From: Muricea muricata
Lineage: Eukaryota; Cnidaria; Anthozoa; Malacalcyonacea; Plexauridae
Reading direction: 5' to 3'
Length of the DNA: 64,000 bases
NCBI GenBank assembly: GCA_963855995.1
Contig: OY979717.1
Location: 16,870,960 to 16,934,959 of the forward strand
Part shown: piece by piece, positions 1 to 64,000 of the stretch
Layout of the letters: each line of letters opens with the position of its first letter
Position numbering within the stretch: position 1 is the first letter of the stretch
The notes under the pieces: model-generated
What the model was told of the DNA's origin: nothing
What the model saw: only the letters and a program-made list of their open reading frames with translations
Database searches by the model: none
Made by a program: the position numbers and the translations under genes

Positions 1-2328
1 GACAATGTACAATCTTAATAAAGAAAACATAGTATCACCTTATCGTATTTCACAGTGCACATGTATACACGTCATATCTAGCTTCATTTCACACTTTCAC
101 AGTTTATAAATCATTATAAATATACCCGTTGAAGGCTACAGACTGGTGGCCGAAAGCTCGTAAACAAATAAATATATTTTAGTCAGAGAACGTCTCACCC
201 TTTTCATTTATGTCTAATCCTGGCTACACATCTACGATTTTTAGTGGTTTATATTGTTCAACTATTTTTTAAAGATCATTCAGTTGAAAACGGGTAAATA
301 ATTTAAACCACATAGGGCGAGTGTAATAGCCAACGCGGTCTGGTGATCAAGCAAAGTGGTGCAGTAAATAAACAACGCAGCTGAACGATAATTCCCTTGC
401 TCGGAATTATTTTTATGTTTTAGAACAATTATAGGCTAGAGTAAACCCCGCTTAAACAATTTAAGTGGCAAGGGCGTGATAGCATTCGTGTAGTCTAGTG
501 GCCAATGAAAAATGTCTCAAGTCAACGAGTTCTTGGTCAAATCTTGCCCTTGTCACAAACCCCATAGGCTTTTGTCTGGGGTAAGAACTATTATAAATAT
601 ACACGCTAGATTAATTCAAAGTTATTTGAACCCATTCGCGAGCTTTTGTTCGCATTTCATCGAATAATATTTAATCATACTCTGTCGAGGAAGATCTTGA
701 AGTTGCTTTGAGTGTAATTACATTTTTAAATGTATGTACAAATTTATTCCTAAATAAATCCAATTCAGTCTTTTGCAATATCACAAATAATAAAAATCGA
801 TAAGATCACAACTTGAGCATACAGTAGGTTTCTGGTGCTACGAATTTTAAAAGCCCATATGTTTGTAAGTAGAACATGTGAAAAATAAATGTGTGTTGAA
901 ATCAGCCTTCCCTTATACTCGGAGAAGACCTTGAAATTCTGATCAAACATACATTTCCAAATTTAATGACCCAGCTTTAGGCGTTCAATATATATCATTG
1001 AACTAAACAGATCACTATTTAAATCTAATGTCGAAGAACAACATTATTGCTGACTCTGAGGCACTACAGAGACGATAAGTATTTAATAAATGGAAATGTT
1101 GTTCGCTGATTCCTTAAATGATCACGCAAATTATATTTTGATGTTTATGACACAACTTATATAAAGCACGTTAATAACCGCATCCTATACATGGACGCAT
1201 GTGCGCATGGCAATAGTGTCTACCCGGTCGTAATTCAACCACAATCACTGCAACAGCAGAGCATGAGGTATATATATACAAATCGGTGTTACTATATCTT
1301 GATGGTCTGATTCGAAGATACAGGGTTTTAGCACTTACGGTCTGGGGGCCGCTTCTACCCTCCCCTATATTTCGAACCAGAGGTGGTGGAGTTATGACAC
1401 AGACGGTTGAGGCAGTCAATTCGATGTCGTTGTCGAAAGGCAACCGCATTTGGTGGGTTGTCGAGGCCAACTGTTCGAAGCCATCCGAGTGCCATCCGTG
1501 TGCAAACTTTTATTACAATACCCCGGTCCTTTTCACTATCGTCATGCTGTCTTTTATACCGCCATCCCTAGACTAATCCTCCGAAGGTAGCAGAATTTCT
1601 CAGCTGACACCCATTGGAACTTTCTAATTTAAATTGGCTACGCTAGTGTGCAATCTCTTATGATGCTTTTCAATAGCCCCTAATGTAAGGGGTATAGCAT
1701 AATTCTTTTCAATTATTTATTTGGGGTTTTTTTGCAAGAAAAAAAGATGGTTCCCACCGTTATGAAAAACTATAGCATTTTGAGCACGGTGTTTTGTCGA
1801 ATTTTTTTCGATGATTTTTTAAAACTGTTATTTTCTCCATTTACCAGAAATTTTGTCAGTGCGGTTAAGAACGAAATAAAAATTTTCATTTATCAGACTG
1901 TATGATACAAAGAAGTTGTGAAATTTTGACGACTTCTTTTCTAAAAAAAATTTTAAAATAGACCAAAAGATACTTTGGAAAGGGTCATAATTCTTCCACT
2001 TGACGAAAACTATTTAATGCATGGGCAGGAATTGATCCTAGCCACTTTTGTTGAGTCATTTTTACTTGACCACTGGATTACGTTGGTTATGAGGCTCCGG
2101 CAGGTGGGTTTAAGTTGTCTAAACGTTTTAGCCTATGCTTAATTCTTAAAACTGACCAAAGCCAGAACGATTTTTGGCAAAGCTAGGCAGGCATTGTTCC
2201 CGGACTCAGTGATTGATTTTGATGGATACATATTGCCGGTCTTTACGGCACTAGACTATGTTAGTTACCACTTTCCATGTTAGTTACCACTTTCAAAGGG
2301 TGAAGAATTATCATAAATATAAACGCTA

Positions 2329-2498
2329 CGCCAGTTAACAAGTAAACTCACTCGATAAACACAAGTACAGTCAATAATGTAATATATTGTAATCCCTGAA
2401 CAATAACAATGCACAATATTATATGCGCGAAAACAAGCGGAAGTAAACTTGCGGAAGTCACGCGTTCTACTAATATAAATAACGACACCATGTGTGGC
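2329..2498 (-). repeat. 3' LTR of the retrotransposon
   Basis: This copy of the 170-bp repeat lies downstream of pol on the coding strand. Identity with the 5' copy implies a recent insertion, because LTRs are identical when they integrate and diverge afterwards. The satellite is interrupted after AAACGCTA at 2328. Confidence 0.9.
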
Positions 2499-2530
2499 GC
2501 AGTTTCTGTTTGTTTTTTTTTTTTTCTTCC
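2499..2530 (-). other. Candidate polypurine-like tract before the 3' LTR
   Basis: On the minus strand the last bases before the 3' LTR are strongly A-rich: GGAAG followed by 13 A residues, then AACAAACAGAAACTG. The position matches a plus-strand primer. The segment touching the LTR contains C and T, so it is not a clean polypurine tract. Confidence 0.35.
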
Positions 2531-2600
2531 TAAGATGGTGAGGCTGTTCCATACTTCAGCTACAGTTACTCTATATAAACTAACGCAAGTATTTACAATA

Positions 2601-5600
2601 TTAATGTTCATACTCCAAGTAGTTGGGTGGCTTTCGTATGCGCTGAGGCCGTGTGGGTATTTGGGCGGTGGTCGGAGAAGATGGGTGAAGCTGCAAAACG
2701 TCAGGCACCGATGGAGAAGGCCGGGGTTCCACGGGGGCTGACTCAACCATACACTGCGTTTCGTCCTCACTATCTGATTCGGCGAAATGGTTGCCTGTGG
2801 CCTGACTCACTTCACTGGGAACACGATAACATTCGTCAAGGCGGACTTTATAAGAGACTGCTCGAATCTGTGAATTAGTAAACTTCTTGATAAAGCACCA
2901 TGGGTGGTCAATTGATACCACCAGGTATCTGTTGCGGACTTTTGTTTTATCTCGTTCGGTACGCAGGTAAACGAGATCACCAACTGCTATTTTGTGGATT
3001 GAAGTGTGCACACGAGTTTCTTTAGGATATTTGGAGCGTTCGCTATAGGGGTGATTCTTTAAGCGCTGTTGACGCTGGGTTCTGATTGTGTTGATGTCGT
3101 CTATCGGGAGTTGAGTGTTAGAGTATTGGTCCCTGTGTGTCCATAATTCGTATGCAGAGAGTCCCTGTCGACGAAGGCGGGAGTTTAGCCTGGATATAGC
3201 AATACTTAATCCAAGGTGAGTAATAGGTTCCCCATTTGGTGCTTGTCGGCGGAGTTCTTCCTCGACTTCAGCAACGGCCTTCTCTGCAACCGGATTCTTG
3301 TTGATGTTTTTGGCTCTACCAATCTCCAACGTGATGCCTAGGGTCAGAAGTGCGGGATCATTTTTTAACGCTCGGAAACCAGGGGCAGGATCTACTCGAA
3401 TTGTAGCAGGGGGACCGTCGGGAGAGTGGAGTGCGACGAATAAAGTGGATAGATTGTCGCGAAGGGTGGCAGTCTTTTCGTCCGAAATGATACAGGCAGA
3501 GGTAAAAGATGTCGAGGTATCTCGAAGAACAAGAATAAACTGTTTGCTTCTTCGAAGAACATCTGCAGCAAAGGAGATGCCAACTACAGCAGGTGGATCG
3601 TTTGAGGTCTGGTTTAGTAGAGGTTGTGGCAGATTGCGGAGAGAGGCGCAGGTGTGGCACGTGTCGCGAACACGATCAATGGCTTTCGTCATATCGAGAG
3701 CATAAAAATGGCGTTTCATAGCAAGATTCAATTGATGCGCAGTGGGATGGTCCAGTCTGACGTGGAGAGCTGTTATAAGACTATCGAGGGCACTGCGTGG
3801 AACAACAATCAATTCCGTAATGGGGGAAAGAGGGTCTGTACGTGGAACGACCAAGAGGCCATCTTTAGCAATGGATGCGACGTTAAGATATCGCTTCACA
3901 TCATTGATGTTGGTGGCTTTTTTGGAGGGTCGTGTGCCTTGTTTCAAGTGGGCATGGGTGCGACGAAGGTCGGAACACTCAGCCTGAACCTCATACCACG
4001 CGGATCTCGTTGTAAATGGCAGATGTGAAAGGTTTCGAATATCTTGAACAGACGCTGCCCGAACGACGGAATCTTCAGTCGCCGCGATGAATGTGCAGAC
4101 TTGGCAATGTGGCTCGGAACATTCGGCAGCATTGCGGCTTGAAAAATCTGAAGGGATATTAGACGACCCAGCAAGGTGTTGAACGTGAACGGCATAACGA
4201 CTGACGATGGAAAGAAAGGATGTTACTCGAGGGCTGGCAGAAAATTCTCCACGACACAATTTTTGAACTGCCTGTACACATGGCTTGCTGTCCGTAAGTA
4301 GGCACGTGGGCTGGACTGATTGTATTATGTATGGACTGAAATGTTTGATGGACGCTGCAATGCTTAGGGCCTCGATCTCGCACGGAAGCCAGGTGACCTG
4401 GTGTTTGCGCAATTTGGCGCTGAAAAAGCCTGCAAGTTGTACTTTGCTATCCCTGTTTACATACAACGTTGCACCGATACCGCTTTTAGCCACTGAACCA
4501 TCGGTCACAATCCAGAGCTGGTCGGATGGTCGTGGGAGCGTAATGGACTTGTGTTCCTTGAGAGCATTTTGGGCAGCATGGAAGTGTACAAGTGAAGTAT
4601 CTGTCCACGGTATAGCGTCACGGGATTCTTTGCCTGATATGAACTGATCAAGTGGTGCGAGGAGTTGGGAGCAGCTTGGAAGGACACGGCTAAGGGCTTT
4701 GTATGCGCCAATAAATGAGCGTAATCCACGGACAGTGTCTGGCGGTGGACACGAAGAAAGAGTAGCAACGCGATGTTGGCTGGCGGACAACTGACCTAGT
4801 GTCCAGACCCATCCAAGGATGGTGGTGGATTGGGGACAGATTGTGGTTTTAGATGCAGACAGGTGAAGATTGCACCGCTGGAGGGCATCTAGAACTCGTT
4901 GCCAGTTCTGTAACAGCTCTTCGGGTGTGTCTGCACCACAATAAAGATCATCTGCCAGTTTTGCCGCGATTCCATCCTGTAAACAATCTCCGAGAACCCG
5001 ACACATGAGTTCTTCTAGGGCAGTTTCGGAACCTGGCATTCCCATTGCACAACGTGTGTAGGCACGGACGCCCCGGAAAGGTGTTGCAACGCCGCAATAC
5101 TTCATAGATTCCTTTGCTAGGGGTATCTGATAGAATGCGCTAGTGAGATCAGTTACGATCAGGTACTTCCACCTTGCGATTGTGCGCAAGGTGGTCTCCA
5201 CGTCGGGCATTAAAGATGGTTGAGGCTTACTGTATCTGGCCACGTCAGCAAAGGCAGTGACTAGTCGGTGTCCACCAGATGGTTTTGTGACTAGAAAGGA
5301 TGGGTTGAGATATTCTATCGTTATGCCAATGTCCTCTGGACGTTGAAATACTCCCTGACGCTCCAGCTCATCAAACTTTGCCTGCAGCTGAACTAACTTG
5401 TTGCGAGAATACTGGGGGAGACGACCCTTTCGTTGGGGCGGTTGCACTGGGCCCATGTTGACGATGGCTTCGAAAGGACCCACGGCGCCATTGTATCCGG
5501 AAATGGAGGGGTCAAATACAGAGTCGTAACTGTGCAGTAACTTTTGGAAAGCGGCACGACTGGTTTCAGGTAGGATATGGTCAGGGTCTAGTTGGACTGC

Positions 5601-5666
5601 AGAGGAGTGGAGGGGAATGGGTTCTGCTGGTGTGGAGGGTGGGGGGGGGGGGCAGGAGGTAGTGTG
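2601..5666 (-). CDS. Pol polyprotein (reverse transcriptase-RNase H-integrase)
   Basis: The frame is open from 5666, just after an in-frame stop at 5667-5669, to the stop at 2601 (about 1020 codons). It has no obvious own ATG near its start and lies in the -1 frame relative to gag, overlapping it by 79 nt, so frameshift expression is likely. Reverse transcriptase has a first catalytic Asp at 5148-5150 (VTDLTSAFYQ) and the Asp pair at 4947-4952 in LADD rather than the common YxDD. RNase H starts with VTDGS (Asp 4500-4502) and has later EIEAL and TDSK motifs. Integrase has an HX4H...CX2C zinc finger (His 3762-3764 and 3747-3749; Cys 3657-3659 and 3648-3650) and a DDE triad at 3561-3563, 3390-3392 and 3282-3284, with exactly 35 residues between the last two. 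All catalytic residues I looked for are present, so the element may still be active. Confidence 0.9.
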   Translation of the reverse strand, partial: HTTSCPPPPPSTPAEPIPLHSSAVQLDPDHILPETSRAAFQKLLHSYDSVFDPSISGYNGAVGPFEAIVNMGPVQPPQRKGRLPQYSRNKLVQLQAKFDELERQGVFQRPEDIGITIEYLNPSFLVTKPSGGHRLVTAFADVARYSKPQPSLMPDVETTLRTIARWKYLIVTDLTSAFYQIPLAKESMKYCGVATPFRGVRAYTRCAMGMPGSETALEELMCRVLGDCLQDGIAAKLADDLYCGADTPEELLQNWQRVLDALQRCNLHLSASKTTICPQSTTILGWVWTLGQLSASQHRVATLSSCPPPDTVRGLRSFIGAYKALSRVLPSCSQLLAPLDQFISGKESRDAIPWTDTSLVHFHAAQNALKEHKSITLPRPSDQLWIVTDGSVAKSGIGATLYVNRDSKVQLAGFFSAKLRKHQVTWLPCEIEALSIAASIKHFSPYIIQSVQPTCLLTDSKPCVQAVQKLCRGEFSASPRVTSFLSIVSRYAVHVQHLAGSSNIPSDFSSRNAAECSEPHCQVCTFIAATEDSVVRAASVQDIRNLSHLPFTTRSAWYEVQAECSDLRRTHAHLKQGTRPSKKATNINDVKRYLNVASIAKDGLLVVPRTDPLSPITELIVVPRSALDSLITALHVRLDHPTAHQLNLAMKRHFYALDMTKAIDRVRDTCHTCASLRNLPQPLLNQTSNDPPAVVGISFAADVLRRSKQFILVLRDTSTSFTSACIISDEKTATLRDNLSTLFVALHSPDGPPATIRVDPAPGFRALKNDPALLTLGITLEIGRAKNINKNPVAEKAVAEVEEELRRQAPNGEPITHLGLSIAISRLNSRLRRQGLSAYELWTHRDQYSNTQLPIDDINTIRTQRQQRLKNHPYSERSKYPKETRVHTSIHKIAVGDLVYLRTERDKTKVRNRYLVVSIDHPWCFIKKFTNSQIRAVSYKVRLDECYRVPSEVSQATGNHFAESDSEDETQCMVESAPVEPRPSPSVPDVLQLHPSSPTTAQIPTRPQRIRKPPNYLEYEH

Positions 5667-7414
5667 TTATCGACAATAGACACGTCTGAGGTTAAGGTGG
5701 GTAGGACCTGGCAAAAGTGTTCATGGCGAGCAAGATGTTGAGGTTCAGTCGTGTCATTCAGAATACGAACGTGACCAGCAACAGCTTCAACGATGTTGGG
5801 ATGAGGCCAATTACGAGTCGATCTGGCGCAATCTGGGCGAGGTTCCAGTGCAAGGATAGAATCAGGGTGGACTTGGGGAGGTAACTGAATGTCTATATAC
5901 TCTCCTGGCCAAATGACTGTAGATGATGGTGAAGCACGTAAGACATGGGACTGGGTGCGCCGTACATGGTTCTGTGGAGGGTCAGGGCCTTCAGCTCCAT
6001 AATACAAGATGTGGGAGCCTTGGATGGATATCTGTTGGAGGGATGGTCTAACCGAGATGTCATTGAGTGCCATAAAGGGCGTTCCAGCTAAGATATCAAC
6101 ATCGAGTTCCTCGACTGCGAGGGCATCAAGATGAAGGTCAACATGATCGCGATTGACATTGAAGTGGACTTCCCCAACTACGGTAAGGGGGGTTATGCCG
6201 TCAGCCTGGAGGGCAGTTTGTGTGGTCTTATGGATAATGGCCCCAACTTGTCTAGCCACTGACGCTTTGATCATACTTATCTCGGCACCTGTGTCGAGGG
6301 TAAGCTGCAGAGCATGATGGTGGTAAAAAACCTTAAGGTGAGGAGAGCGCTTGGTACAGACCCGTCGCGTTGTAGGCGTAACGCGGTAGTTATGGGAGCT
6401 ACCTTCCATAATGCTTTCAGGAGGAGTTGCTATGTGGCCAGGAGGGGTTTCAATGTAATCAGATGCAGTTTCGATATCGAAGCTTTCGGACATCACTTGT
6501 CGTGCACGGGTCAAGTATTGGCGATCAGGAGTTGGAAGGAGGGGACACTTGCTAAGGTAATGGTAAAACTGTGATCGGTTTGCTTGTTGACACAGAGGGC
6601 ATATTTTCCGTCTTGTACTTGGGACCCTGGTGTTGGAAGGTGCCTGTGGGTGTGTATTACGTTGAGAGCTAGACTGTTGAAATGCAGTACGTAGGACTTT
6701 TGACTCATTTGTGCTCTGAATTTCTTCCAGCAGGGACTCGAGGGCCTGGGATATTTCAGGCTTTAGGCTGGCTAATGTTTGGGACCTTAGCTCAGTTCCG
6801 TAGCGCTGCTTAATGAGTGCTGGTAAGTCGGGGTGAACTAGACGTAACCATGTAATAACGATAACATTTTCAAGGGTGGGAGTAAGCTCTTCATCGTTAG
6901 TCACATTTTCCCCGTGGTGGCGGATACTGCCATTCACCTTTAGCAAATTATCGTCCATAAAGCCCAATAGACGTTGATAGAGGTCCTCGGGTCGTTCCCC
7001 GGGTTCTAAGTGTAGGTTATTAAAATCTAAGAACCTGGCACCGGTAGCCTGGAACCCAAAGTGAGCTCGAATAGCCTGCCAAATTGATTGCATGGATGTG
7101 GAATTTTTAACAATAGTGTTGCGAGCAACTACCGGACAAAAGTTAGCAATCTGACCCAACATTAATTCTAGGTGAGTTACCTTTTGAGCGGCGGTCCGTC
7201 GGTTTGCTTGTGGTACGTCCTCGCCATCATCAGCGAAGCCTCGAGTTGGCTGATTGCTAGTCTTGCGTTGCCATGTTGTTTCTTCGAGCAAAAAGTGAGC
7301 AAAATTCGGATCCAAGGACAAGATATATAGAAGGTTCTGACGCCACGCTTCGAATGAAGTGATTGTTTCATCTTTGGATAAACTCCACTGTTTAGGAGCA
7401 CGATTACTGGCCAT
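5588..7414 (-). CDS. Gag-protease polyprotein of the LTR retrotransposon
   Basis: This 608-residue ORF is uninterrupted from ATG at 7414. The N-terminal ~250 residues form a gag-like region rich in helix-forming residues. A Cys/His cluster at C272, C275, H285 and C290 (CX2CX9HX4C) resembles a zinc knuckle with unusual spacing. A retropepsin-type aspartic protease follows, with the catalytic DTGA at residues 374-377 (Asp codon 6293-6295) and a later DILAGTPF motif like the family's ILG element. A further ~120 residues after the protease are of unknown role. The C-terminus is proline-rich and encoded partly by a run of 12 C. Gag should form the particle and the protease should process the polyproteins. 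The pol frame begins inside its 3' end. The ATG at 7414 lies 160 nt downstream of the LTR. Confidence 0.88.
   Translation of the reverse strand: MASNRAPKQWSLSKDETITSFEAWRQNLLYILSLDPNFAHFLLEETTWQRKTSNQPTRGFADDGEDVPQANRRTAAQKVTHLELMLGQIANFCPVVARNTIVKNSTSMQSIWQAIRAHFGFQATGARFLDFNNLHLEPGERPEDLYQRLLGFMDDNLLKVNGSIRHHGENVTNDEELTPTLENVIVITWLRLVHPDLPALIKQRYGTELRSQTLASLKPEISQALESLLEEIQSTNESKVLRTAFQQSSSQRNTHPQAPSNTRVPSTRRKICPLCQQANRSQFYHYLSKCPLLPTPDRQYLTRARQVMSESFDIETASDYIETPPGHIATPPESIMEGSSHNYRVTPTTRRVCTKRSPHLKVFYHHHALQLTLDTGAEISMIKASVARQVGAIIHKTTQTALQADGITPLTVVGEVHFNVNRDHVDLHLDALAVEELDVDILAGTPFMALNDISVRPSLQQISIQGSHILYYGAEGPDPPQNHVRRTQSHVLRASPSSTVIWPGEYIDIQLPPQVHPDSILALEPRPDCARSTRNWPHPNIVEAVAGHVRILNDTTEPQHLARHEHFCQVLPTLTSDVSIVDNTLPPAPPPHPPHQQNPFPSTPLQSN
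5641..5652 (-). promoter_or_regulatory. Poly-C tract in the gag-pol overlap, candidate -1 frameshift site
   Basis: Twelve consecutive C residues on the coding strand lie inside the 79-nt overlap between gag (ends 5588) and the pol frame (opens 5666). Pol is in the -1 frame, and a homopolymer allows tandem tRNA slippage by -1. One additional C would place gag and pol in a single frame, so tract length decides the architecture. A sequencing error here is also possible. Confidence 0.45.
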
Positions 7415-7555
7415 TCTGATGACTTAGCGACTGACTTTTTACAGCGTGATACAAGCTGTCGTGTTTTGACTCCTTTAGTCCGAGCGAATTGTTGTCGATC
7501 TGACTGTGTAGCAAAGTTACACCTTGTCGTAACTGTTTATTAAATCAGAGTTGAA

Positions 7556-7573
7556 TAAATGACGCTGCCACCA
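7556..7573 (-). other. Candidate primer-binding site
   Basis: Read on the minus strand, the sequence abutting the 5' LTR begins TGGTGGCAGCG. Ty3/Gypsy primer-binding sites begin with TGG, the complement of the tRNA CCA end, directly after the LTR. The position fits; I did not identify the primer tRNA. Confidence 0.55.
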
Positions 7574-7743
7574 CGCCAGTTAACAAGTAAACTCACTCGA
7601 TAAACACAAGTACAGTCAATAATGTAATATATTGTAATCCCTGAACAATAACAATGCACAATATTATATGCGCGAAAACAAGCGGAAGTAAACTTGCGGA
7701 AGTCACGCGTTCTACTAATATAAATAACGACACCATGTGTGGC
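7574..7743 (-). repeat. 5' LTR of the retrotransposon
   Basis: This 170-bp direct repeat lies upstream of gag on the coding strand. I saw no difference from the copy at 2329-2498. Its start on the plus strand is fixed by the adjacent TGG of the primer-binding site. Its other end is ambiguous by one or two bases because the LTR end and the target duplication share CGC. On the coding strand it contains TATA-like AT stretches that could act as a promoter. No canonical AATAAA was seen. It is short for an LTR of this class. Confidence 0.9.
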
Positions 7744-8138
7744 GCTAGATTAAATCGAAGTTATTCGAGCGCATTCGCGAGCTTTTGTTCGCATTTCATC
7801 AAATAATATTTAATCATACTCTGTCGAGGAAGACCCTGAAGTTGCTTTTGAGTGTAATTACATTTTTAAATTATGTAAAAATTTATTTCTAAATAAATCC
7901 AATTGAGTCTTTTGCAATATAACAAGTAACAAAAATGGGTAAGATCACAACTTGAGCATACAGTAGGTTTCTGGTTCTACGAATTTTAAAAGCCTATACT
8001 TTTGTGAGTATATACGTAATAAAACATTTGAAAAATAAATGTGTGTTGAAATCAGCCTTCTCTTATACTCGGAGAAGATCTTGTAAATTCTGATCAAACA
8101 TACCGGCTTTTCGAAACATAATGACCTAGCTATAGGTG

Positions 8139-8176
<38 letters not shown>

Positions 8177-18997: not shown

Positions 18998-21900
18998 GAC
19001 AATGTACAATCTTAATACAGAAAACATAGTATCACCTTATCGTATTTCACAGTGCACATGTATACACGTCATATCTAGCTTCATTTCACACTTTCACAGT
19101 TTATAAATCATCATAAATATACCCGTTGAAGGCTACAGACTGGTGGCCGAAAGCTCGTAAACAAATAAATATATTTTAGTCAGAGAACGTCTCACCCTTT
19201 TCATTTATGTCTAATCCTGGCTACACATCTACGATTTTTAGTGGTTTATATTGTTCAACTATTTTTTAAAGATCATTCAGTTGAAAACGGGTAAATAATT
19301 TAAACCACATAGGGCGAGTGTAATAGCCAACGCGGTCTGGTGATCAAGCAAAGTGGTGCAGTAAATAAACAACGCAGCTGAACGATAATTCCCTTGCTCG
19401 GAATTATTTTTATGTTTTAGAACAATTATAGGCTAGAGTAAACCCCGCTTAAACAATTTAAGTGGCAAGGGCGTGATAGCATTCGTGTAGTCTAGTGGCC
19501 AATGAAAAATGTCTCAAGTCAACGAGTTCTTGGTCAAATCTTGCCCTTAACACAAACCCCATAGGCTTTTGTCTGGGTTAAGAACTATTATAAATATACA
19601 AGCTAGATTAATTCAAAGTTATTTGAACCCATTCGCGAGCTTTTGTTCGCATTTCATCGAATAATATTTAATCATACTCTGTCGAGGAAGATCTTGAAGT
19701 TGCTTTGAGTGTAATTACATTTTTAAATGTATGTACAAATTTATTCCTAAATAAATCCAATTGAGTCTTTTGCAATATCACAAATAATAAAAATCGATAA
19801 GATCACAACTTGAGCATACAGTAGGTTTCTGGTGCTACGAATTTTAAAAGCCCATATGTTTGTAAGTAGAACATGTGAAAAATAAATGTGTGTTGAAATC
19901 AGCCTTCCCTTATACTCGGAGAAGACCTTGAAATTCTGATCAAACATACATTTCCAAATTTAATGACCCAGCTTTAGACGTTCAATATATATCATTGAAC
20001 TAAACAGATCACTATTTAAATCTAATGTCGAAGAACAACATTATTGCTGACTCTGAGGCACTACAGAGACGATAAGTATTTAATAAATGGAAATGTTGTT
20101 CGCTGATTCCTTAAATGATCACGCAAATTATATTTTGATGTTTATGACACAACTTATATACAGCACGTTAATAACCGCATCCTATACATGGACGCATGTG
20201 CGCATGGCAATAGTGTCTACCCGGTCGTAATTCAACCACAATCACTGCAACAGCAGAGCATGAGGTATATATATACAAATCGGTGTTACTATATCTTGAT
20301 GGTCTGATTCGAAGATACAGGGTTTTAGCACTTACGGTCTGGGGGCCGCTTCTACCCTCCCCTACATTTCGAACCAGAGGTGGTGGAGTTATGACACAGA
20401 CGGTTGAGGCAGTCAATTCGATGTCGTTGTCGAAAGGCAACCGCATTTGGTGGGTTGTCGAGGCCAACTGTGCGAAGCCATCCGAGTGCCATCCGTGTGC
20501 AAACTTTTATTACAATACCCCGGTCCTTTTCACTATCGTCATGCTGTCTTTTATACCGCCATCCCTAGACTAATCCTCCGAAGGTAGCAGAATTTCTCAG
20601 CTGACACCTATTGGAACTTTCTAATTTAAATTGGTTACGCTAGTGTGCAATCTCTTATGATGCTTTTCAATAGCCCTTAATGTAAGGGGTATAGCATAAT
20701 TCTTTTCAATTATTTATTTGGGGTTTTTTTGCAAAAAAAAAAGATGGTTCCCACCGTTATGAAAAACTATAGCATTTTGAGCACGGTGTTTTGTCGAATT
20801 TTTTTCGATGATTTTTTAAAACTGTTATTTTCTCCATTTACCAGAAATTTTGTCAGTGCGGTTAAGAACGAAATAAAAATTTTCATTTATCAGACTGTAT
20901 GATACAAAGAAGTTGTGAAATTTTGACGACTTCTTTTCTAAAAAAAATTTTAAAATAGACCAAAAGATACTTTGGAAAGGGTCATAATTCTTCCACTTGA
21001 CGAAAACTATTTAATGCATGGGCAGGAATTGATCCTAGCCACTTTTGTTGAGTCATTTTTACTTGACCACTGGATTACGTTGGTTATGAGGCTCCGGCAG
21101 GTGGGTTTAAGTTGTCTACACGTTTTAGCCTATGCTTAATTCTTAAAACTGACCAAAGCCAGAACGATTTTTGGCAAAGCTAGGCAGGCATTGTTCCCGG
21201 ACTCAGTGATTGATTTTGATGGATACATATTGCCGGTCTTTACGGCACTAGACTATGTTAGTTACCACTTTCCATGTTAGTTACCACTTTCAAAGGGTGA
21301 AGAATTATCATAAATATAAACGCTAGATTAAATCGAAGTTATTCGAGCCCATTCGCGAGCTTTTGTTCGCATTTCATCAAATAATATTTAATCATACTCT
21401 GTCGAGGAAGACCCTGAAGTTGCTTTTGAGTGTAATTACATTTTTAAATTATGTAAAAATTTATTTCTAAATAAATCCAATTGAGTCTTTTGCAATATAA
21501 CAAGTAACAAAAATGGGTAAGATCACAACTTGAGCATACAGTAGGTTTCTGGTTCTACGGATTTTAAAAGCCTATACTTTTGTGAGTATATACGTAATAA
21601 AACATTTGAAAAATAAATGTGTGTTGAAATCAGCCTTCTCTTATACTCGGAGAAGATCTTGTAAATTCTGATCAAACATACCGGCTTTTCGAAACATAAT
21701 GACCTAGCTATAGGTGTCCAATATATATATATATATATATATATATCATTGAACAAAGAAGATCACTATTTAAATCTAATTTCGAAGGCAACATTATTGC
21801 TGGGGCAATCCAGAGACGATAAGTACTAAATAAATGGAAATGTGTTTCGCTGATTGCATAAATGACCACGCAAATTATATTTTGATGTTTATGATAAAAC

Positions 21901-22379
21901 TTATGCAGGACGTTAATAACAGCAGCCTATATATAGATGCATGTGCGCATGGCAATAGTGCCTACCTGGTCGTAATTCAACCACAATTAGTGCAACAGGA
22001 AAGCATGACGTACATATATAGAAATCGGTGGCACTATAGTATCACCGATTTGTATATATATACGTCATGCTTTGCTGTTGCAGTAATTGTAGTTGAATTA
22101 CGACCAGGTAGGCACTATTGCCATGCGTGATCATTTGCTTTTCTTGTTTTAAAATATCTGCCTGTACTTAGGGGAAACAGGCAGATCTCTGAAAACAAGA
22201 AAGGCTGAACACATCAGAAACGTTAAGGAACATAATAATGGTTCAAACATCGAAAAACATGCAACGCGAAAATCATTGACACACGGAATTTCCGTAGTCG
22301 CCTAACACTAGAAGTCCAGAATCATGGCATACAGCTGGCAAAGACAGGAATGCTGATAACAACTCAAAACCGCTTCCTC
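18998..22379. repeat. Macrosatellite unit 5, 3382 bp
   Basis: AT tract 21721-21746 (26 nt); palindrome 21946-22127; PLE tail 22153-22411. The first half has its own variants (for example CCTACATTTCG at 20361-20371, shared with unit 2). From about 20.4-20.7 kb onward it matches type B of the higher-order dimer. Confidence 0.96.
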
Positions 22380-25300
22380 GACAATGTACAATCTTAATAA
22401 AGAAAACATAGTATCACCTTATCGTATTTCACAGTGCACATGTATACACGTCATATCTAGCTTCATTTCACACTTTCACAGTTTATAAATCATTATAAAT
22501 ATACCCGTTGAAGGCTACAGACTGGTGGCCGAAAGCTCGTAAACAAATAAATATATTTTAGTCAGAGAACGTCTCACCCTTTTCATTTATGTCTAATCCT
22601 GGATACACATCTACGATTTTTAGTGGTTTATATTGTTCAACTATTTTTTAAAGATCATTTAGTTGAAAACGGGTAAATAATTTAAACCACATAGGGCGAG
22701 TGTAATAGCCAACGCGGTCTGGTGATCAAGCAAAGTGGTGCAGTAAATAAACAACGCAGCTGAACGATAATTCCCTTGCTCGGAATTATTTTTATGTTTT
22801 AGAACAATTATAGGCTAGAGTAAACCCCGCTTAAACAATTTAAGTGGCAAGGGCGTGATAGCATTCGTGTAGTCTAGTGGCCAATGAAAAATGTCTCAAG
22901 TCAACGAGTTCTTGGTCAAATCTTGCCCTTGTCACAAACCCCATAGGCTTTTGTCTGGGGTAAGAACTATTATAAATATACACGCTAGATTAATTCAAAG
23001 TTATTTGAACCCATTCGCGAGCTTTTGTTCGCATTTCATCGAATAATATTTAATCATACTCTGTCGAGGAAGATCTTGAAGTTGCTTTGAGTGTAATTAC
23101 ATTTTTAAATGTATGTACAAATTTATTCCTAAATAAATCCAATTGAGTCTTTTGCAATATCACAAATAATAAAAATCGATAAGATCACAACTTGAGCATA
23201 CAGTAGGTTTCTGGTGCTACGAATTTTAAAAGCCCATATGTTTGTAAGTAGAACATGTGAAAAATAAATGTGTGTTGAAATCAGCCTTCCCTTATACTCG
23301 GAGAAGACCTTGAAATTCTGATCAAACATACATTTCCAAATTTAATGACCCAGCTTTAGGCGTTCAATATATATCATTGAACTAAACAGATCACTATTTA
23401 AATCTAATGTCGAAGAACAACATTATTGCTGACTCTGAGGCACTACAGAGACGATAAGTATTTAATAAATGGAAATGTTGTTCGCTGATTCCTTAAATGA
23501 TCACGCAAATTATATTTTGATGTTTATGACACAACTTATATACAGCACGTTAATAACCGCATCCTATACATGGACGCATGTGCGCATGGCAATAGTGTCT
23601 ACCCGGTCGTAATTCAACCACAATCACTGCAACAGCAGAGCATGAGGTATATATATACAAATCGGTGTTACTATATCTTGATGGTCTGATTCGAAGATAC
23701 AGGGTTTTAGCACTTACGGTCTGGGGGCCGCTTCTACCCTCCCCTATATTTCGAACCAGAGGTGGTGGAGTTATGACACAGACGGTTGAGGCAGTCAATT
23801 CGATGTCGTTGTCGAAAGGCAACCGCATTTGGTGGGTTGTCGAGGCCAACTGTGCGAAGCCATCCTAGTGCCATCCGTGTGCAAACTTTTATTACAATAC
23901 CCCGGTCCTTTTCACTATCGTCATGCTGTCTTTTATACCGCCATCCCTAGACTAATCCTCCGAAGGTAGCAGAATTTCTCAGCTGACACCTATTGGAACT
24001 TTCTAATTTAAATTGGTTACGCTAGTGTGCAATCTCTTATGATGCTTTTCAATAGCCCCTAATGTAAGGGGTATAGCATAATTCTTTTCAATTATTTATT
24101 TGGGGTTTTTTTGCAAGAAAAAAAGATGGTTCCCACCGTTATGAAAAACTATAGCATTTTGAGCACGGTGTTTTGTCCAATTTTTTTCGATGATTTTTTA
24201 AAACTGTTATTTTCTCCATTTACCAGAAATTTTGTCAGTGCGGTTAAGAACGAAATAAAAATTTTCATTTATCAGACTGTATGATACAAAGAAGTTGTGA
24301 AATTTTGACGACTTCTTTTCTAAAAAAAATTTTAAAATAGACCAAAAGATACTTTGGAAAGGGTCATAATTCTTCCACTTGACGAAAACTATTTAATGCA
24401 TGGGCAGGAATTGATCCTAGCCACTTTTGTTGAGTCATTTTTACTTGACCACTGGATTACGTTGGTTATGAGGCTCCGGCAGGTGGGTTTAAGTTGTCTA
24501 CACGTTTTAGCCTATGCTTAATTCTTAAAACTGACCAAAGCCAGAACGATTTTTGGCAAAGCTAGGCAGGCATTGTTCCCGGACTCAGTGATTGATTTTG
24601 ATGGATACATATTGCCGGTCTTTACGGCACTAGACTATGTTAGTTACCACTTTCCATGTTAGTTACCACTTTCAAAGGGTGAAGAATTATCATAAATATA
24701 AACGCTAGATTAAATCGAAGTTATTCGAGCCCATTCGCGAGCTTTTGTTCGCATTTCATCAAATAATATTTAATCATACTCTGTCGAGGAAGACCCTGAA
24801 GTTGCTTTTGAGTGTAATTACATTTTTAAATTATGTAAAAATTTATTTCTAAATAAATCCAATTGAGTCTTTTGCAATATAACAAGTAACAAAAATGGGT
24901 AAGATCACAACTTGAGCATACAGTAGGTTTCTGGTTCTACGGATTTTAAAAGCCTATACTTTTGTGAGTATATACGTAATAAAACATTTGAAAAATAAAT
25001 GTGTGTTGAAATCAGCCTTCTCTTATACTCGGAGAAGATCTTGTAAATTCTGATCAAACATACCGGCTTTTCGAAACATAATGACCTAGCTATAGGTGTC
25101 CAATATATATATATATATATATATATCATTGAACAAAGAAGATCACTATTTAAATCTAATTTCGAAGGCAACATTATTGCTGGGGCAATCCAGAGACGAT
25201 AAGTACTAAATAAATGGAAATGTGTTTCGCTGATTGCATAAATGACCACGCAAATTATATTTTGATGTTTATGATAAAACTTATGCAGGACGTTAATAAC

Positions 25301-25759
25301 AGCAGCCTATATATAGATGCATGTGCGCATGGCAATAGTGCCTACCTGGTCGTAATTCAACCACAATTAGTGCAACAGGAAAGCATGACGTACATATATA
25401 GAAATCGGTGGCACTATAGTATCACCGATTTGTATATATATACGTCATGCTTTGCTGTTGCAGTAATTGTGGTTGAATTACGACCAGGTAGGCACTATTG
25501 CCATGCGTGATCATTTGCTTTTCTTGTTTTAAAATATCTGCCTGTACTTAGGGGAAACAGGCAGATCTCTGAAAACAAGAAAGGCTGAACACATCAGAAA
25601 CGTTAAGGAGCATAATAATGGTTCAAACATCGAAAAACATGCAACGTGAAAATCATTGACACACGGAATTTCCGTAGTCGCCTAACACTAGAAGTCCAGA
25701 ATCATGGCATACAGCTGGCAAAGACAGGAATGCTGATAACAACTCAAAACCGCTTCCTC
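22380..25759. repeat. Macrosatellite unit 6, 3380 bp, type A of the dimer
   Basis: Type A markers are GGATACACAT near 22610, ATCATTTAGTTG, and CATCCTAGTG near 23865, which puts a stop in a 96-codon frame. AT tract 25103-25126; palindrome 25326-25507; PLE tail 25533-25791, with ACGTGAAAATC where other units have ACGCGAAAATC. Confidence 0.96.
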
Positions 25760-46083: not shown

Positions 46084-47389
46084 GACAATGTACAATCTTA
46101 ATAAAGAAAACATAGTATCACCTTATCGTATTTCACAGTGCACATGTATACACGTCATATCTAGCTTCATTTCACACTTTCACAGTTTATAAATCATCAT
46201 AAATATACCCGTTGAAGGCTACAGACTGGTGGCCGAAAGCTCGTAAACAAATAAATATATTTTAGTCAGAGAACGTCTCACCCTTTTCATTTATGTCTAA
46301 TCCTGGCTACACATCTACGATTTTTAGTGGTTTATATTGTTCAACTATTTTTTAAAGATCATTCAGTTGAAAACGGGTAAATAATTTAAACCACATAGGG
46401 CGAGTGTAATAGCCAACGCGGTCTGGTGATCAAGCAAAGTGGTGCAGTAAATAAACAACGCAGCTGAACGATAATTCCCTTGCTCGGAATTATTTTTATG
46501 TTTTAGAACAATTATAGGCTAGAGTAAACCCCGCTTAAACAATTTAAGTGGCAAGGGCGTGATAGCATTTGTGTAGTCTAGTGGCAAATGAAAAATGTCT
46601 CAAGTCAACGAGTTCTTGGTCAAATCTTGCCCTTGTCACAAACCCCATAGGCTTTTGTCTGGGGTAAGAACTATTATAAATATACACGCTAGATTAATTC
46701 AAAGTTATTTGAACCCATTCGCGAGCTTTTGTTCGCATTTCATCGAATAATATTTAATCATACTCTGTCGAGGAAGATCTTGAAGTTGCTTTGAGTGTAA
46801 TTACATTTTTAAATGTATGTACAAATTTATTCCTAAATAAATCCAATTGAGTCTTTTGCAATATCACAAATAATAAAAATCGATAAGATCACAACTTGAG
46901 CATACAGTAGGTTTCTGGTGCTACGAATTTTAAAAGCCCATATGTTTGTAAGTAGAACATGTGAAAAATAAATGTGTGTTGAAATCAGCCTTCCCTTATA
47001 CTCGGAGAAGACCTTGAAATTCTGATCAAACATACATTTCCAAATTTAATGACCCAGCTTTAGGCGTTCAATATATATCATTGAACTAAACAGATCACTA
47101 TTTAAATCTAATGTCGAAGAACAACATTATTGCTGACTCTGAGGCACTACAGAGACGATAAGTATTTAATAAATGGAAATGTTGTTCGCTGATTCCTTAA
47201 ATGATCACGCAAATTATATTTTGATGTTTATGACACAACTTATATACAGCACGTTAATAACCGCATCCTATACATGGACGCATGTGCGCATGGCAATAGT
47301 GTCTACCCGGTCGTAATTCAACCACAATCACTGCAACAGCAGAGCATGAGGTATATATATACAAATCGGTGTTACTACACTGTAAAAAC

Positions 47390-47792
47390 AAACTGGTTAA
47401 AATGACCAATTTTTATTGGTTGTAACCAATTCAAATTGGTAATTATAACCAATTAAAGAGTTGGTTAGTCCGACATAACCAATTAAATATTGGTTGTTTC
47501 GACCAATTCTGTATTGGTTGCAATTTTTGACCAATTTGAATTGGTTAATTGAACCAATTTGAAATTGGTCATATGTATAACCAATTTTGAATTGGTCAAA
47601 TGCATAACCAATTTAAAATTGGTAAAATATATAACCAATTTAAAATAGGTCAAATACATAACCATCTTAAATTGGTCAAATAATTAACCAATTCAAAATT
47701 GGTCAAATCCACAACCAATTATAAATTGGTCAAATTTATAACAAAATTAGAAATTGGTCAAATCCGCAACCAATTATTGATTGGTCAACTTT
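47390..47792. repeat. Left subterminal array of CCAATT/AATTGG palindromic repeats
   Basis: About fifteen imperfect copies, ~25-27 bp apart, each hold a small palindrome of the form ACCAATT-N-AATTGGT followed by an AT-rich spacer such as CAAATNNATA. In other TIR transposons such subterminal repeats bind transposase or accessory protein; that role is inference here. The short minus-strand ORF at 47483-47665 is only a translation of this array. Confidence 0.85.
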
Positions 47793-50285
47793 ATGAATTC
47801 TCTAACGAATTATATATGAGCCTTTGTCACAATCGTCAGGAACATATTTATAAATCGTTTATGATCTTTTCGTGAGAATTTTGGGTTTACACCTGTTGGA
47901 AACAGGCAGCGCAAAAAGACCCATGTGCTAAAATAGACCTCTTGCGTTTGGCTTGATAATAGCAGCATTGAACTAAGAATTTATATTTATAGTATAAGGC
48001 GCATTCATTAGCAATGGATGTTTTTACCAGAGGAAATATCTCAGTTTATTCCATGTTGGAAAAACACAATGATGGTGTACAGTCAATTATACAGATCAGT
48101 GGCAGTACTCCGCGCGCAATGCAAACCGGGAAGCGTCTCACATGCTTCGAAGCCATATTTTTCATTCTTTCAATTATGATGTCGCTTTATAGCAAACAAA
48201 ATTGCAATAATAACCGTGATGACGAATGAAATAACTCCTCATACATCAGGAAAGACAGCGTAATACTCAGGTGAGATGGTTGTTATACTTTTTGTGTCGA
48301 TAAGCCCTTTGGACGTGTAATATTTACTTCGTTTCACCGTCATGTATTTCAAACACGTGTTCCAGTTTATATATATTTGAATTTCGCGCGACAGTATTTG
48401 AAATAAAACGTTGATATCAACAGATTGCCTTGATACAAGGTTTTATTTGAATGGAAAGAACTACAAACGGTAAAAATTGTATTCTGTAGATAGCCAGATG
48501 TGGTTATATGCAGACACATACTGAATGTCTGTGAATGCATGTCTGAATGCCCATCAGACTATGCAATCAATACATATACATATTATTAGATAGTTCTATA
48601 ACTCAAGCGTGCCACTTACATACGTTACTGTTTATTTAAATATCTGTAAGGATGGTAGTTTATAAGGATGTAAATTAACACTATGCATCAGTCAAAGGTT
48701 TGTGATGCATTTTGAATCAGTCAAAGATGCAGTGATGCAGTTTGAATCTACCAACTTTATCTATTTCTTTCTCAGCAAATTTTGTGGGATATTTGCCCTG
48801 TATTAGTTATGTGACACTTATTATATTTTGATATCAAGTGTTAGCACAGTATTTAGTTAAGTCTTGCTCTCCCTTTGGTAATAAAATTGCCTGCCATAAT
48901 GAAGACACCATAAAATCATAAGGTAGAGAAAATTGCTGCTTACATGTATATAAAAAATAACCTCATTCAAAAAGTTCCATCATACTATTGGATGTAAAGC
49001 GTCTTACATGCCCGACTTTCAAGTTCTTGTTTTAAAAGAAGTAATGAACTCCTTGTTTGAATATGTATTTTTGACAAACTCTTATGCCAGATTAGTTTTA
49101 TTTGTGTATGTATACCTGACCATACAATTCTATTCATCAACAGAAGTGCTACAGTATGTGCACTTCTCAAAACTTAGCAAAACAATCTGTTAATGCAATT
49201 CTCTAAAGCTTATAAATAACAATGTGACCAAAGCATACCATTTTATTACTATATTTTGTTAAATGTCAGATTATTGCACTTAACAAGGGAGTGTCACCAA
49301 CATTGCATTATTTTCCCTTCTAATTTTGGCAAAACACCAGAAAATTTTATTTAGAAAGTTGATTTTAGATTCTTGTTTGTATTGTTGCAATGAATAACTA
49401 AGTTATTTCTTATTGTTATATATGCTATGTCATATGCTATATAGCTATTTGGTTATTCTAACATAAGATTTTATTAAATTGCAGGCTTCAAGTATATGTT
49501 ACATGTAAATGCATGGAAACATCTTTGGTTATGCTTCCGTCATTGAATAAAAGGCTCGAACAATTGGTTGCAAGTTGTTGATTGCTGTCAAAAGTATTCA
49601 GATTATGAAAGACAGGAAGTTCCAACACAATTTTCAACTCCAGTTTTGGATATTATAGAAGTAATCAATTTACTAGGTTTGTTACAAACATTGAATGTCC
49701 TTGTTGCCTAAAACCAGGCGTTTTAGCTGCCAAACCCCAAAATATTGAACAGAAGTATGGTATGATTAAATTGAGAGGGACAGCTGGCATGCATTAATGT
49801 TTAATGCTGGTACTGCTGTCTTGTAGTCAAAAAAGTTTTTTCCATTGTAAGTAGCTGTATAGCTGTTATTTGGATATTAGATAAATCCTCTAACTTCAAA
49901 GCTTAAGTGCATGCTGATGTTTGGTATAGTTTGTTTAATTCCATAAGATATGAACATTTGACACTTTACTGTTCTTCAATGAAATGGCAAGATCTGATCA
50001 TTTACTGCATGTCCATTTACAGTTCAGTACAACTTATTTTTGCAACATATATGGGCCATGCATAATAATATAGCTTTCAGGTTAGAGCTGATAATCAGTA
50101 TAACAGCTGTCAGTTACAGTTTGGTCACTTTTTAATGAGTCATCTTTGTAAATATCTTTATGATTCATTGTCCAGTCAACAGTTAAATAAATGTTTATGC
50201 ATTGGGGGTAATCTGTACAAATATCATAAGCATGTTACTTAATGTCATTTCACCTTTTTGTAACACAAATTAAATTTTTGTGTTA
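47793..50285. other. Interior of the DNA transposon, no recognisable gene
   Basis: About 2.5 kb of AT-rich single-copy sequence lies between the subterminal arrays. The longest plus-strand ORF is 71 codons (48014-48229); it has no motif I recognise and no companion exons I can defend. A CAG|GTGAGA donor-like site near 48270, an acceptor-like TTGCAG near 49480 and AATAAA near 49546 could belong to a captured exon pair, but this is speculation. It could be captured host DNA or a decayed transposase. Confidence 0.5.
48687..48745 (+). repeat. Two-copy short tandem repeat inside the DNA transposon
   Basis: Two adjacent ~29-30-bp copies both begin ATCAGTCAAAG, continue GTGATGCA and end TTTGA. They are slightly diverged. 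No function is implied. Confidence 0.7.
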
Positions 50286-50347
50286 AGTAGCCGGTCATTT
50301 TAATCATTTTAAAATGGCTAACCAATTTAAATTTGGTCATTTTAAAT

Positions 50348-50557
50348 TAGTTAAAATGACCAAAAAAAATTGGTAGTTTGGATGCATCTGAGACAACCAG
50401 TTTAGATTGGTCATTTTAACCAAAACCTAATTTGGTTAAAACAACCAAAAATGTAATTGGTAAAAATGACCAATTATTTTTTTGGTTAAAGCAACCAATT
50501 TAAACTGGCTGTCTCAGATGCATCCAAACAACCAAATTTTTTTGGTCGTTTTAACCA
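50348..50557. repeat. Right-end palindrome of the DNA transposon
   Basis: A ~210-bp palindrome is centred near 50452. The arms pair TTAAAATGACC at the outside, GATGCATC at 50381-50388 with GATGCATC at 50517-50524, and a shared CCAGTTTA/TAAACTGG segment. The outer edge runs into the right terminal repeat. The left end has the short-period array instead, so the two ends differ in architecture. It contains the same TTGGT/ACCAA units as the left array. Confidence 0.75.
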
Positions 50558-52667
50558 ATCTGTTTTTACAGTGTATATCTTGATGGTCTGATTCGAAGAT
50601 ACAGGGTTTTAGCACTTACGGTCTGGGGGCCGCTTCTACCCTCCCCTATATTTCGAACCAGAGGTGGTGGAGTTATGACACAGACGGTTGAGGCAGTCAA
50701 TTCGATGTCGTTGTCGAAAGGCAACCGCATTTGGTGGGTTGTCGAGGCCAACTGTGCGAAGCCATCCGAGTGCCATCCGAGAGCCATCCGTGTGCAAACT
50801 TTTATTACAATACCCCGGTCCTTTTCACTATCGTCCTGCTGTCTTTTATACCGCCATCCCTAGACTAATCCTCCGAAGGTAGCAGAATTTCTCAGCTGAC
50901 ACCTATTGGAACTTTCTAATTTAAATTGGTTACGCTAGTGTCCAATCTCTTATGATGCTTTTCAATAGCCCCTAATGTAAGGGGTATAGCATAATTCTTT
51001 TCAATTATTTATTTGGGGTTTTTTGCAAGAAAAAAAGATGGTTCCCACCGTTATGAAAAACTATAGCATTTTGAGCACGGTGTTTTGTCCAATTTTTTTC
51101 GATGATTTTTTAAAACTGTTATTTTCTCCATTTACCAGAAATTTTGTCAGTGCGGTTAAGAACGAAATAAAAATTTTCATTTATCAGACTGTATGATACA
51201 AAGAAGTTGTGAAATTTTGACGACTTCTTTTCTAAAAAAAATTTTAAAATAGACCAAAAGATACTTTGGAAAGGGTCATAATTCTTCCACTTGACGAAAA
51301 CTATTTAATGCATGGGCAGGAATTGATCCTAGCCACTTTTGTTGAGTCATTTTTACTTGACCACTGGATTACGTTGGTTATGAGGCTCCGGCAGGTGGGT
51401 TTAAGTTGTCTACACGTTTTAGCCTATGCTTAATTCTTAAAACTGACCAAAGCCAGAACGATTTTTGGCAAAGCTAGGCAGGCATTGTTCCCGGACTCAG
51501 TGATTGATTTTGATGGATACATATTGCCGGTCTTTACGGCACTAGACTATGTTAGTTACCACTTTCCATGTTAGTTACCACTTTCAAAGGGTGAAGAATT
51601 ATCATAAATATAAACGCTAGATTAAATCGAAGTTATTCGAGCCCATTCGCGAGCTTTTGTTCGCATTTCATCAAATAATATTTAATCATACTCTGTCGAG
51701 GAAGACCCTGAAGTTGCTTTTGAGTGTAATTACATTTTTAAATTATGTAAAAATTTATTTCTAAATAAATCCAATTGAGTCTTTTGCAATATAACAAGTA
51801 ACAAAAATGGGTAAGATCACAACTTGAGCATACAGTAGGTTTGTGGTTCTACGAATTTTAAAAGCCTATACTTTTGTGAGTATATACGTAATAAAACATT
51901 TGAAAAATAAATGTGTGTTGAAATCAGCCTTCTCTTATACTCGGAGAAGATCTTGTAAATTCTGATCAAACATACCGGCTTTTCGAAACATAATGACCTA
52001 GCTATAGGTGTCCAATATATATATATATATATATCATTGAACAAAGAAGATCACTATTTAAATCTAATTTCGAAGGCAACATTATTGCTGGGGCAATCCA
52101 GAGACGATAAGTACTAAATAAATGGAAATGTGTTTCGCTGATTGCATAAATGACCACGCAAATTATATTTTGATGTTTATGATAAAACTTATACAGCACG
52201 TTAATAACAGCAGCCTATATATAGATGCATGTGCGCATGGCAATAGTGCCTACCTGGTCGTAATTCAACCACAATTAGTGCAACAGGAAAGCATGACGTA
52301 CATATATAGAAATCGGTGGCACTATAGTATCACCGATTTGTATATATATACGTCATGCTTTGCTGTTGCAGTAATTGTGGTTGAATTAGGACCAGGTAGG
52401 CACTATTGCCATGCGTGATCATTTGCTTTTCTTGTTTTAAAATATCTGCCTGTACTTAGGGGAAACAGGCAGATCTCTGAAAACAAGAAAGGCTGAACAC
52501 ATCAGAAACGTTAAGGAACATAATAATGGTTCAAACATCGAAAAACATGCAACGCGAAAATCATTGACACACGGAATTTCCGTAGTCGCCTAACACTAGA
52601 AGTCCAGAATCATGGCATACAGCTGGCAAAGACAGGAATGCTGATAACAACTCAAAACCGCTTCCTC

Positions 52668-58762: not shown

Positions 58763-58840
<78 letters not shown>

Positions 58841-62190: not shown

Positions 62191-62226
<36 letters not shown>

Positions 62227-62857
62227 TTGAACAAAGAAGATCACTATTTAAATCTAATTTCGAAGGCAACATTATTGCTGGGGCAATCCAGAGACGATAA
62301 GTATTAAATAAATGGAAATGTGTTTCGCTGATTGCATAAATGACCACGCAAATTATATTTTGATGTTTATGATAAAACTTATGCAGGACGTTAATAACAG
62401 CAGCCTATATATAGATGCATGTGCGCATGGCAACAGTGCCTACCTGGTCGTAATTCAACCACAATTAGTGCAACAGGAAAGCATGACGTACATATATAGA
62501 AATCGGTGGCACTATAGTATCACCGATTTGTATATATATACGTCATGCTTTGCTGTTGCAGTAATTGTAGTTGAATTACGACCAGGTAGGCACTATTGCC
62601 ATGCGTGATCATTTGCTTTTCTTGTTTTAAAATATCTGCCTGTACTTAGGGGAAACAGGCAGATCTCTGAAAACAAGAAAGGCTGAACACATCAGAAACG
62701 TTAAGGAGCATAATAATGGTTCAAACATCGAAAAACATGCAACGCGAAAATCATTGACACACGGAATTTCCGTAGTCGCCTAACACTAGAAGTCCAGAAT
62801 CATGGCATACAGCTGGCAAAGACAGGAATGCTGATAACAACTCAAAACCGCTTCCTC
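59472..62857. repeat. Macrosatellite unit 16, 3386 bp
   Basis: AT tract 62195-62224 (30 nt); palindrome 62424-62605, with a private GGCAACAGTG in its left arm; PLE tail 62631-62889. Confidence 0.96.
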
Positions 62858-64000
62858 GACAATGTACAATCTTAATAAAGAAAACATAGTATCACCTTAT
62901 CGTATTTCACAGTGCACATGTATACACGTCATATCTAGCTTCATTTCACACTTTCACAGTTTATAAATCATTATAAATATACCCGTTGAAGGCTACAGAC
63001 TGGTGGCCGAAAGCTCGTAAACAAATAAATATATTTTAGTCAGAGAACGTCTCACCCTTTTCATTTATGTCTAATCCTGGCTACACATCTACGATTTTTA
63101 GTGGTTTATATTGTTCAACTATTTTTTAAAGATCATTCAGTTGAAAACGGGTAAATAATTTAAACCACATAGGGCGAGTGTAATAGCCAACGCGGTCTGG
63201 TGATCAAGCAAAGTGGTGCAGTAAATAAACAACGCAGCTGAACGATAATTTTCTTGCTCGGAATTATTTTTATGTTTTAGAACAATTATAGGCTAGAGTA
63301 AACCCCGCTTAAACAATTTAAGTGGCAAGGGCGTGATAGCATTCGTGTAGTCTAGTGGCCAATGAAAAATGTCTCAAGTCAACGAGTTCTTGGTCAAATC
63401 TTGCCCTTGTCACAAACCCCATAGGCTTTTGTCTGGGGTAAGAACTATTATAAATATACACGCTAGATTAATTCAAAGTTATTTGAACCCATTCGCGAGC
63501 TTTTGTTCGCATTTCATCGAATAATATTTAATCATACTCTGTCGAGGAAGATCTTGAAGTTGCTTTGAGTGTAATTACATTTTTAAATGTATGTACAAAT
63601 TTATTCCTAAATAAATCCAATTGAGTCTTTTGCAATATCACAAATAATAAAAATCGATAAGATCACAACTTGAGCATACAGTAGGTTTCTGGTGCTACGA
63701 ATTTTAAAAGCCCATATGTTTGTAAGTAGAACATGTGAAAAATAAATGTGTGTTGAAATCAGCCTTCCTTTATACTCGGAGAAGACCTTGAAATTCTGAT
63801 CAAACATACATTTCCAAATTTAATGACCCAGCTTTAGGCGTTCAATATATATCATTGAACTAAACAGATCACTATTTAAATCTAATGTCGAAGAACAACA
63901 TTATTGCTGACTCTGAGGCACTACAGAGACGATAAGTATTTAATAAATGGAAATGTTGTTCGCTGATTCCTTAAATGATCACGCAAATTATATTTTGATG
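62858..64000. repeat. Macrosatellite unit 17, partial
   Basis: The unit is cut by the window end inside block A. It shows the PLE tail end, the hairpin, the forward SINE-like piece and most of block A. The array therefore continues beyond the window on this side. On the left, position 1 is already inside the PLE tail, so it continues there too. Confidence 0.95.

Follow-up and report, generated by a model that had tools for sequence, protein, structure and literature searches.

Macrosatellites such as human DXZ4 consist of a kilobase-sized unit repeated as a tandem array of near-identical copies. Composite satellite DNAs form a second group of described systems: according to the accessible part of PMC12628747, their monomers hold stretches of several transposable elements (TEs), palindromes are frequent among them, and the origin proposed is tandemisation of shuffled TE debris; the same part describes, for the bivalve Crassostrea gigas, shuffled loci of satellite DNAs and Helitron parts. 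Penelope-like elements (PLEs) are a third, as their organisation in the host is tandem or partly tandem and a hammerhead ribozyme is reported in their pLTRs (accessible part of PMC11167929). In the accessible part of PMC3833285, which deals with medium-sized tandem repeats of Drosophila virilis, Penelope is named in the reference list alone. A broad literature search, in which subscription journals were thinly covered, returned no published account recognisable by its title or abstract opening as the satellite family described here.

Self-comparison of the window (the whole stretch of DNA that was analysed, 64,000 nt) showed that 20-mers recur at spacings of 3380 and 6760 bp. Repeated 20-mers are absent from only 6 of the 64 one-kb bins (3001-7000 and 48001-50000), and both of these zones, at 3-7 kb and 48-50 kb, fall within two insertions. 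The remainder of the window is covered head to tail by BLAST of one unit at 98-100% identity, and identity of this order over kilobases leaves chance no serious alternative as an explanation of the array, which continues past both window ends.

1..64000, plus strand: head-to-tail array of a unit of 3356 bp plus an (AT)n tract, with two insertions (self-comparison, BLAST, alignment)

Units were called from a 19-bp anchor word with 16 occurrences, and the left partial unit was numbered u00. The array touches 17 units: 15 are complete, and the partial ones are u00 (2257 bp) and u16 (2272 bp). Of the complete units, 13 measure 3356 bp once the insertions, one copy of each target duplication and the (AT)n tract are subtracted; the exceptions are u10 (3354 bp) and u12 (3366 bp). 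The ten additional bases of u12 sit in an 11-bp repeat, GCCATCCGAGT, of which that unit has an extra copy.

50761..50795, plus strand: 11-bp repeat with an extra copy in u12, the source of that unit's +10 (TRF, alignment)

Head-to-tail tandem copies of one unit are what defines a satellite or macrosatellite, and the macrosatellite with two insertions that the first-pass annotation had described is borne out by self-comparison, BLAST and unit alignment. The self-comparison proposed there confirms the tandem array with its 3380/6760-bp periodicity. The annotated lengths (exactly 3356 bp without the AT tract, with unit 10 shorter by 2 and unit 13 longer by 10) agree with ours, its "unit 13" being, as we take it, u12 in the present numbering. 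Its number of full units, sixteen, is too high by one.

The anatomy of the unit is described on u05. It should be noted that the start phase of the unit is arbitrary, and that BLAST and the self-comparison of blocks took the first 3380 bases of u05.

21255..24636, plus strand: reference unit u05, 3382 bp (3356 + 26) (BLAST, alignment)
21295..22038, plus strand: block A, direct copy of a 745-bp repeat (self-comparison of the unit)
21721..21746, no strand: (AT)n tract, where most of the length variation of the unit lies (TRF, BLAST, alignment)
21946..22127, no strand: palindrome with 91-bp arms, 0-bp spacer, 92% complementary (self-comparison; -139.6 kcal/mol as RNA)
22137..22205, no strand: second hairpin with 29-bp arms (86%) and an 11-bp loop (-31.9 kcal/mol as RNA)
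22153..22302, plus strand: 50-aa open frame resembling a GIY-YIG tail, 5'-truncated (GIY_YIG_2 match below cut-off)
22505..22534, plus strand: hammerhead-core-like word, two mismatches to CTGATGA, then CGAAA (word search)
22958..23675, plus strand: block B, the other direct copy of this 745-bp repeat (self-comparison of the unit)

Blocks A and B are 85% alike over 754 columns and share one end point (...ACTATA). At its end, block A passes directly into an inverted copy of its own 3' 93 bp, which forms the right arm of a 182-bp, zero-spacer palindrome; within those 93 bp, A and B show 11 differences, and the inverted copy shows 7 to each. The palindrome was found by BLAST in each of the 16 units that extend across that part (u00 is without it); in the 14 units for which sound pairing values were obtained (u02-u15), 84-85 of 94 positions pair. 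Thus, both the duplicated block and the large palindrome of the first-pass annotation were recovered. Two miRNA-like Rfam matches at 21984-22089 (E 1.8e-8 and 3.4e-7) reach about 46 bits each, where the gathering scores are 97 and 95; they were rejected and are attributed to the hairpin of the palindrome. The second hairpin is located at the start of the PLE-like frame. The (AT)n tract ranges from 20 to 76 bases over the 16 units holding it, with a bimodal distribution (20-32 bases in 13 of the 16 units, 72-76 in u02, u11 and u15); none of the three long-tract units, compared by substitutions among complete units, is nearest to another of them. No telomere repeat (two adjacent TTAGGG or CCCTAA) occurs within the window.

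The 50-aa frame, which we take to be the end of a Penelope-like GIY-YIG endonuclease, matches Pfam GIY_YIG_2 at E 0.03 and 14.7 bits, below the cut-off of 22.4. The "PLE tail" of the first-pass annotation is plausible, but its basis is this one short, sub-threshold frame. Six exodeoxyribonuclease/5'-exonuclease chains from the PDB (E 0.41-0.95) also matched the frame and were judged to be chance relatives. Altogether, 26 frames of at least 45 aa overlap the unit, and Pfam was run on 13 of these; the other 12 of the 13 gave no match at E<=1.

PLEs being themselves tandem, a fair rival is that the unit is a decayed non-autonomous PLE, in which A and B are pseudo-LTRs around an endonuclease remnant and the array grew by the element's own tandem insertion. 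In favour of this reading, direct copies A and B flank the GIY-YIG-like frame, a hammerhead-core-like word lies between them, and tandem or partial tandem organisation is on record for PLEs (accessible part of PMC11167929). However, of the reverse transcriptase (RT) and GIY-YIG endonuclease by which a PLE is recognised, the first matches none of the 13 frames tested out of the 26, and the second is represented by the 50-aa, sub-threshold frame; nor does the unit contain an Rfam hammerhead at E<=5, the ribozyme expected in a pLTR. The word at 22505 lies outside both A and B; since the unit has four such matches under relaxed criteria, this one is either decayed or due to chance; the relaxed match inside block A (unit position 414) is as likely to be chance. 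Furthermore, A and B are only 85% alike compared to 99.4% for the units, and the duplication thus looks far older than the array. We therefore consider a PLE unit unlikely. The bolder variant, in which the unit is a mobile non-autonomous PLE relative with 745-bp pseudo-LTRs, and retrotransposition, to a greater extent than crossing-over, seeds new multi-kilobase satellite arrays, is very improbable.

The first-pass annotation also included two SINE-like pieces in opposite orientation, one of which probably corresponds to the segment following block B.

23676..23990, no strand: segment probably meant as SINE-like, right end approximate (reading of the earlier text)

A SINE carries a head that derives from tRNA, 5S or 7SL RNA and contains A and B boxes. 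ARAGORN (bacterial setting) found no tRNA; tRNA, 5S and SRP RNA families are absent from the 11 Rfam matches at E<=5 in 21255-25000, and the stretch after block B shows no resemblance to tRNA, 5S or SRP RNA up to E<=10. Each strand has a single A-box-like word when one mismatch is allowed; a B-box was not found at that tolerance, and the stretch after block B shows no more than an A-box-like word. The SINE-like pieces, accordingly, received no support from ARAGORN, Rfam or the A/B-box words, and a SINE origin, having no RNA-family support, was rejected. No dispersed single copy of any unit part was detected in bacterial, viral and plasmid DNA collections, an absence that says little given the nature of these collections. 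The sole genome-contig match, in a Cytophagales MAG, is only a 22-base pattern and was rejected as chance; 27 pattern matches to viral contigs failed tblastn, leaving no confirmed viral relative, and plasmids gave no match at E 1e-5.

Next to this anatomy, the units carry a record of exchange. Sites were counted in the 15 complete units, partial u00 and u16 being excluded, and de-duplicated counts used the 12 complete units that remain after removal of the exact copies u07-u09. The mean pairwise divergence is 0.58% (12 units). The 15 units contain 66 substitution sites, 38 of them informative (34 sites with 12 units). Of 703 site pairs, 231 fail the four-gamete test, with at least 10 exchange intervals, and the frequency of incompatible pairs climbs from 1/17 (6%) at less than 50 columns to 45% among the 216 pairs that are 1500 columns or more apart; whether 15 units (38 sites) or 12 units (34 sites) were used, none of 5000 shuffles of site positions reached this trend. 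Divergence does not rise as units lie farther apart in the array (12 units; r = -0.008, a value reached in 958 of 2000 permutations). Low divergence, decaying linkage and the flat distance relationship are together the signature of concerted evolution, here within one array only. In the absence of structure by array distance, conversion within the array is indistinguishable from exchange with other arrays or with the unsampled rest of this one. Unequal crossing-over and gene conversion predict and explain this pattern, and the array is probably kept uniform by exchange among its units.

A further rival is that the array is functional and its sequence under selection, either as a centromeric or chromatin-forming macrosatellite or as a source of hairpin RNA or siRNA through the 182-bp palindrome. 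In its favour, the array is long and uniform, the zero-spacer palindrome is kept in all 16 units reaching it and has a strong predicted fold, and a 377-column stretch of block B is without variable sites. This stretch (22983-23360 in u05; alignment columns 1779-2156; 15 complete units) is the longest invariant one; notwithstanding its length, the overall spread of sites is compatible with uniformity. The distribution of the 66 variable sites does not differ from an even one beyond chance (KS p 0.54, with limited power at n=66), so no constraint is seen. In addition, the palindrome arms of u05 are mismatched at 7 of 93 positions, the only CENP-B-box-like word was found at up to 4 mismatches, no RNA family reaches its gathering score in the window, and the 13 unit frames tested gave no Pfam match above cut-off. 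Selection for function is thus an improbable explanation; no function of the array is indicated, and conversion together with unequal crossing-over suffices to account for its passive spread.

One part of the array appears to have been copied recently as a dimer.

20366..38646, plus strand: tract of the two-unit (6760-bp) duplication (unit alignment)

Excepting (AT)n, no substitution separates u05, u07 and u09 from each other, nor u06 from u08, and exact identity extends over about 11.5 kb at a shift of 6760-6762 bp; all other pairs of complete units have 7-28 differences. These identities point to a recent copying of a 6760-bp block, unless the assembly looped there. An assembly artefact in part, i.e., a graph loop at the u05-u09 dimer or a wrong copy number, would account for the same substitution-free units and the same long exact identity. 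However, the AT length differs among the dimer copies (26 versus 24), u10 differs from u06/u08 at 7 sites, the remaining complete units are all distinct, and the insertion junctions are clean and have target duplications. We consider an artefact highly unlikely.

The array is probably a composite, TE-derived satellite, with a unit of unusual length, that spread passively by crossing-over and conversion. This reading is based on the exact length of 13 of the 15 units, the decay of linkage within the unit, the exact dimer and the fold-back junctions; the TE origin of the unit's parts, as judged from sequence, is weakly shown. The process may have started from a locus where two copies of the 745-bp repeat lay together with a Penelope-like fragment, truncated at its 5' end, and further debris; this locus would have undergone two fold-back duplications and then tandem duplication. 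The unit copies then exchanged sequence, and meanwhile the AT tract drifted in length. Two mobile elements landed in single units, probably at a later time.

2329..7742, minus strand: Ty3-type LTR retrotransposon inserted in u01 (LTRs, target duplication, Pfam and PDB matches)
47378..50573, no strand: transposon-like insert in u12 (terminal inverted repeats, TA duplication, minisatellite)

The first insert is flanked by a 5-bp target duplication, CGCTA (2324-2328 and 7743-7747), and has two LTRs of 169 bp that are identical to each other and are without the usual TG...CA ends. Its two open frames (611 and 1021 aa, minus strand) include RT and RNase H above the Pfam cut-offs; the LTR pair, the 5-bp duplication and the order RT then RNase H identify a Ty3-type element. 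Two sub-threshold domains, gag-asp_proteas (20.3 bits, cut-off 28.2) before RT and the integrase zinc-binding domain Integrase_H2C2 (22.7 bits, cut-off 25.5) after RNase H, are in the expected order. The best PDB match is the RT/RNase H chain 4ol8, followed by Ty3 Gag-Pol 7q5b (E 2.6e-26), and viral contigs hold no confirmed relative, two pattern matches having failed tblastn. The insert is apparently a young Ty3-type element that inserted recently. The second insert is flanked by a TA duplication and has 32-bp terminal inverted repeats (91%; ends CACTGTAAAAAC); its subterminal minisatellite, of 27 bp, consists of AACCAATT/AATTGGTT words in inverted arrangement. It is AT-rich, with no frame over 79 aa wholly inside, and its insertion point is no more than 2 bp away from where block B ends on the 3' side. 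From these features we infer a non-autonomous DNA transposon, apparently non-coding. The observed/expected CpG ratio is 0.94 in the unit (not depleted) and 0.88 in the first insert (hardly depleted); the second insert, at 0.49 compared to 0.94 for the array, is clearly CpG-depleted. Each insertion is present in just 1 of the 17 units; therefore, both probably postdate the building of the array. The subterminal repeats of the second insert, the Ty3-type element and the Penelope-like tail may hint at a mollusc or some other invertebrate as host.

The array is real and well measured, its explanation is an ordinary one, and no new system is indicated. It is a clean record, within the sequence itself, of satellite homogenisation at the kilobase scale, in which conversion-like mixing below the scale of the unit is seen together with a recent two-unit duplication. 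The first-pass annotation had suggested something undescribed; this may hold for the sequence family, which is perhaps unnamed, but not for the kind, since composite satellite monomers are already described (accessible part of PMC12628747). The array resembles tandem PLEs with pLTRs in its tandem habit, its GIY-YIG-like frame and its flanking direct repeats (accessible part of PMC11167929), and differs from them in the truncated frame, with no RT found and no Rfam hammerhead. The array shares with human macrosatellites of the DXZ4 type the kilobase unit and the near-identical tandem copies, no promoter, gene or chromatin role being indicated here. The closest likeness is to the recently proposed composite "TE graveyard" satellites, which also have palindromes or inverted repeats and head-to-tail order, and whose monomer of several TE-like stretches the present unit may share (accessible part of PMC12628747). 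In contrast to these, the pieces of the present unit match no named TE except through one sub-threshold frame: of the several TE types that a composite satellite should contain, Pfam returned a single sub-threshold GIY_YIG_2 match, with the 12 other tested frames matchless. As far as its TE parts are testable, the unit would fit this kind. It also differs in being 3.4 kb long with junctions that are still legible, and these junctions make it well suited to testing the idea that satellite DNA arises from shuffled TE debris.
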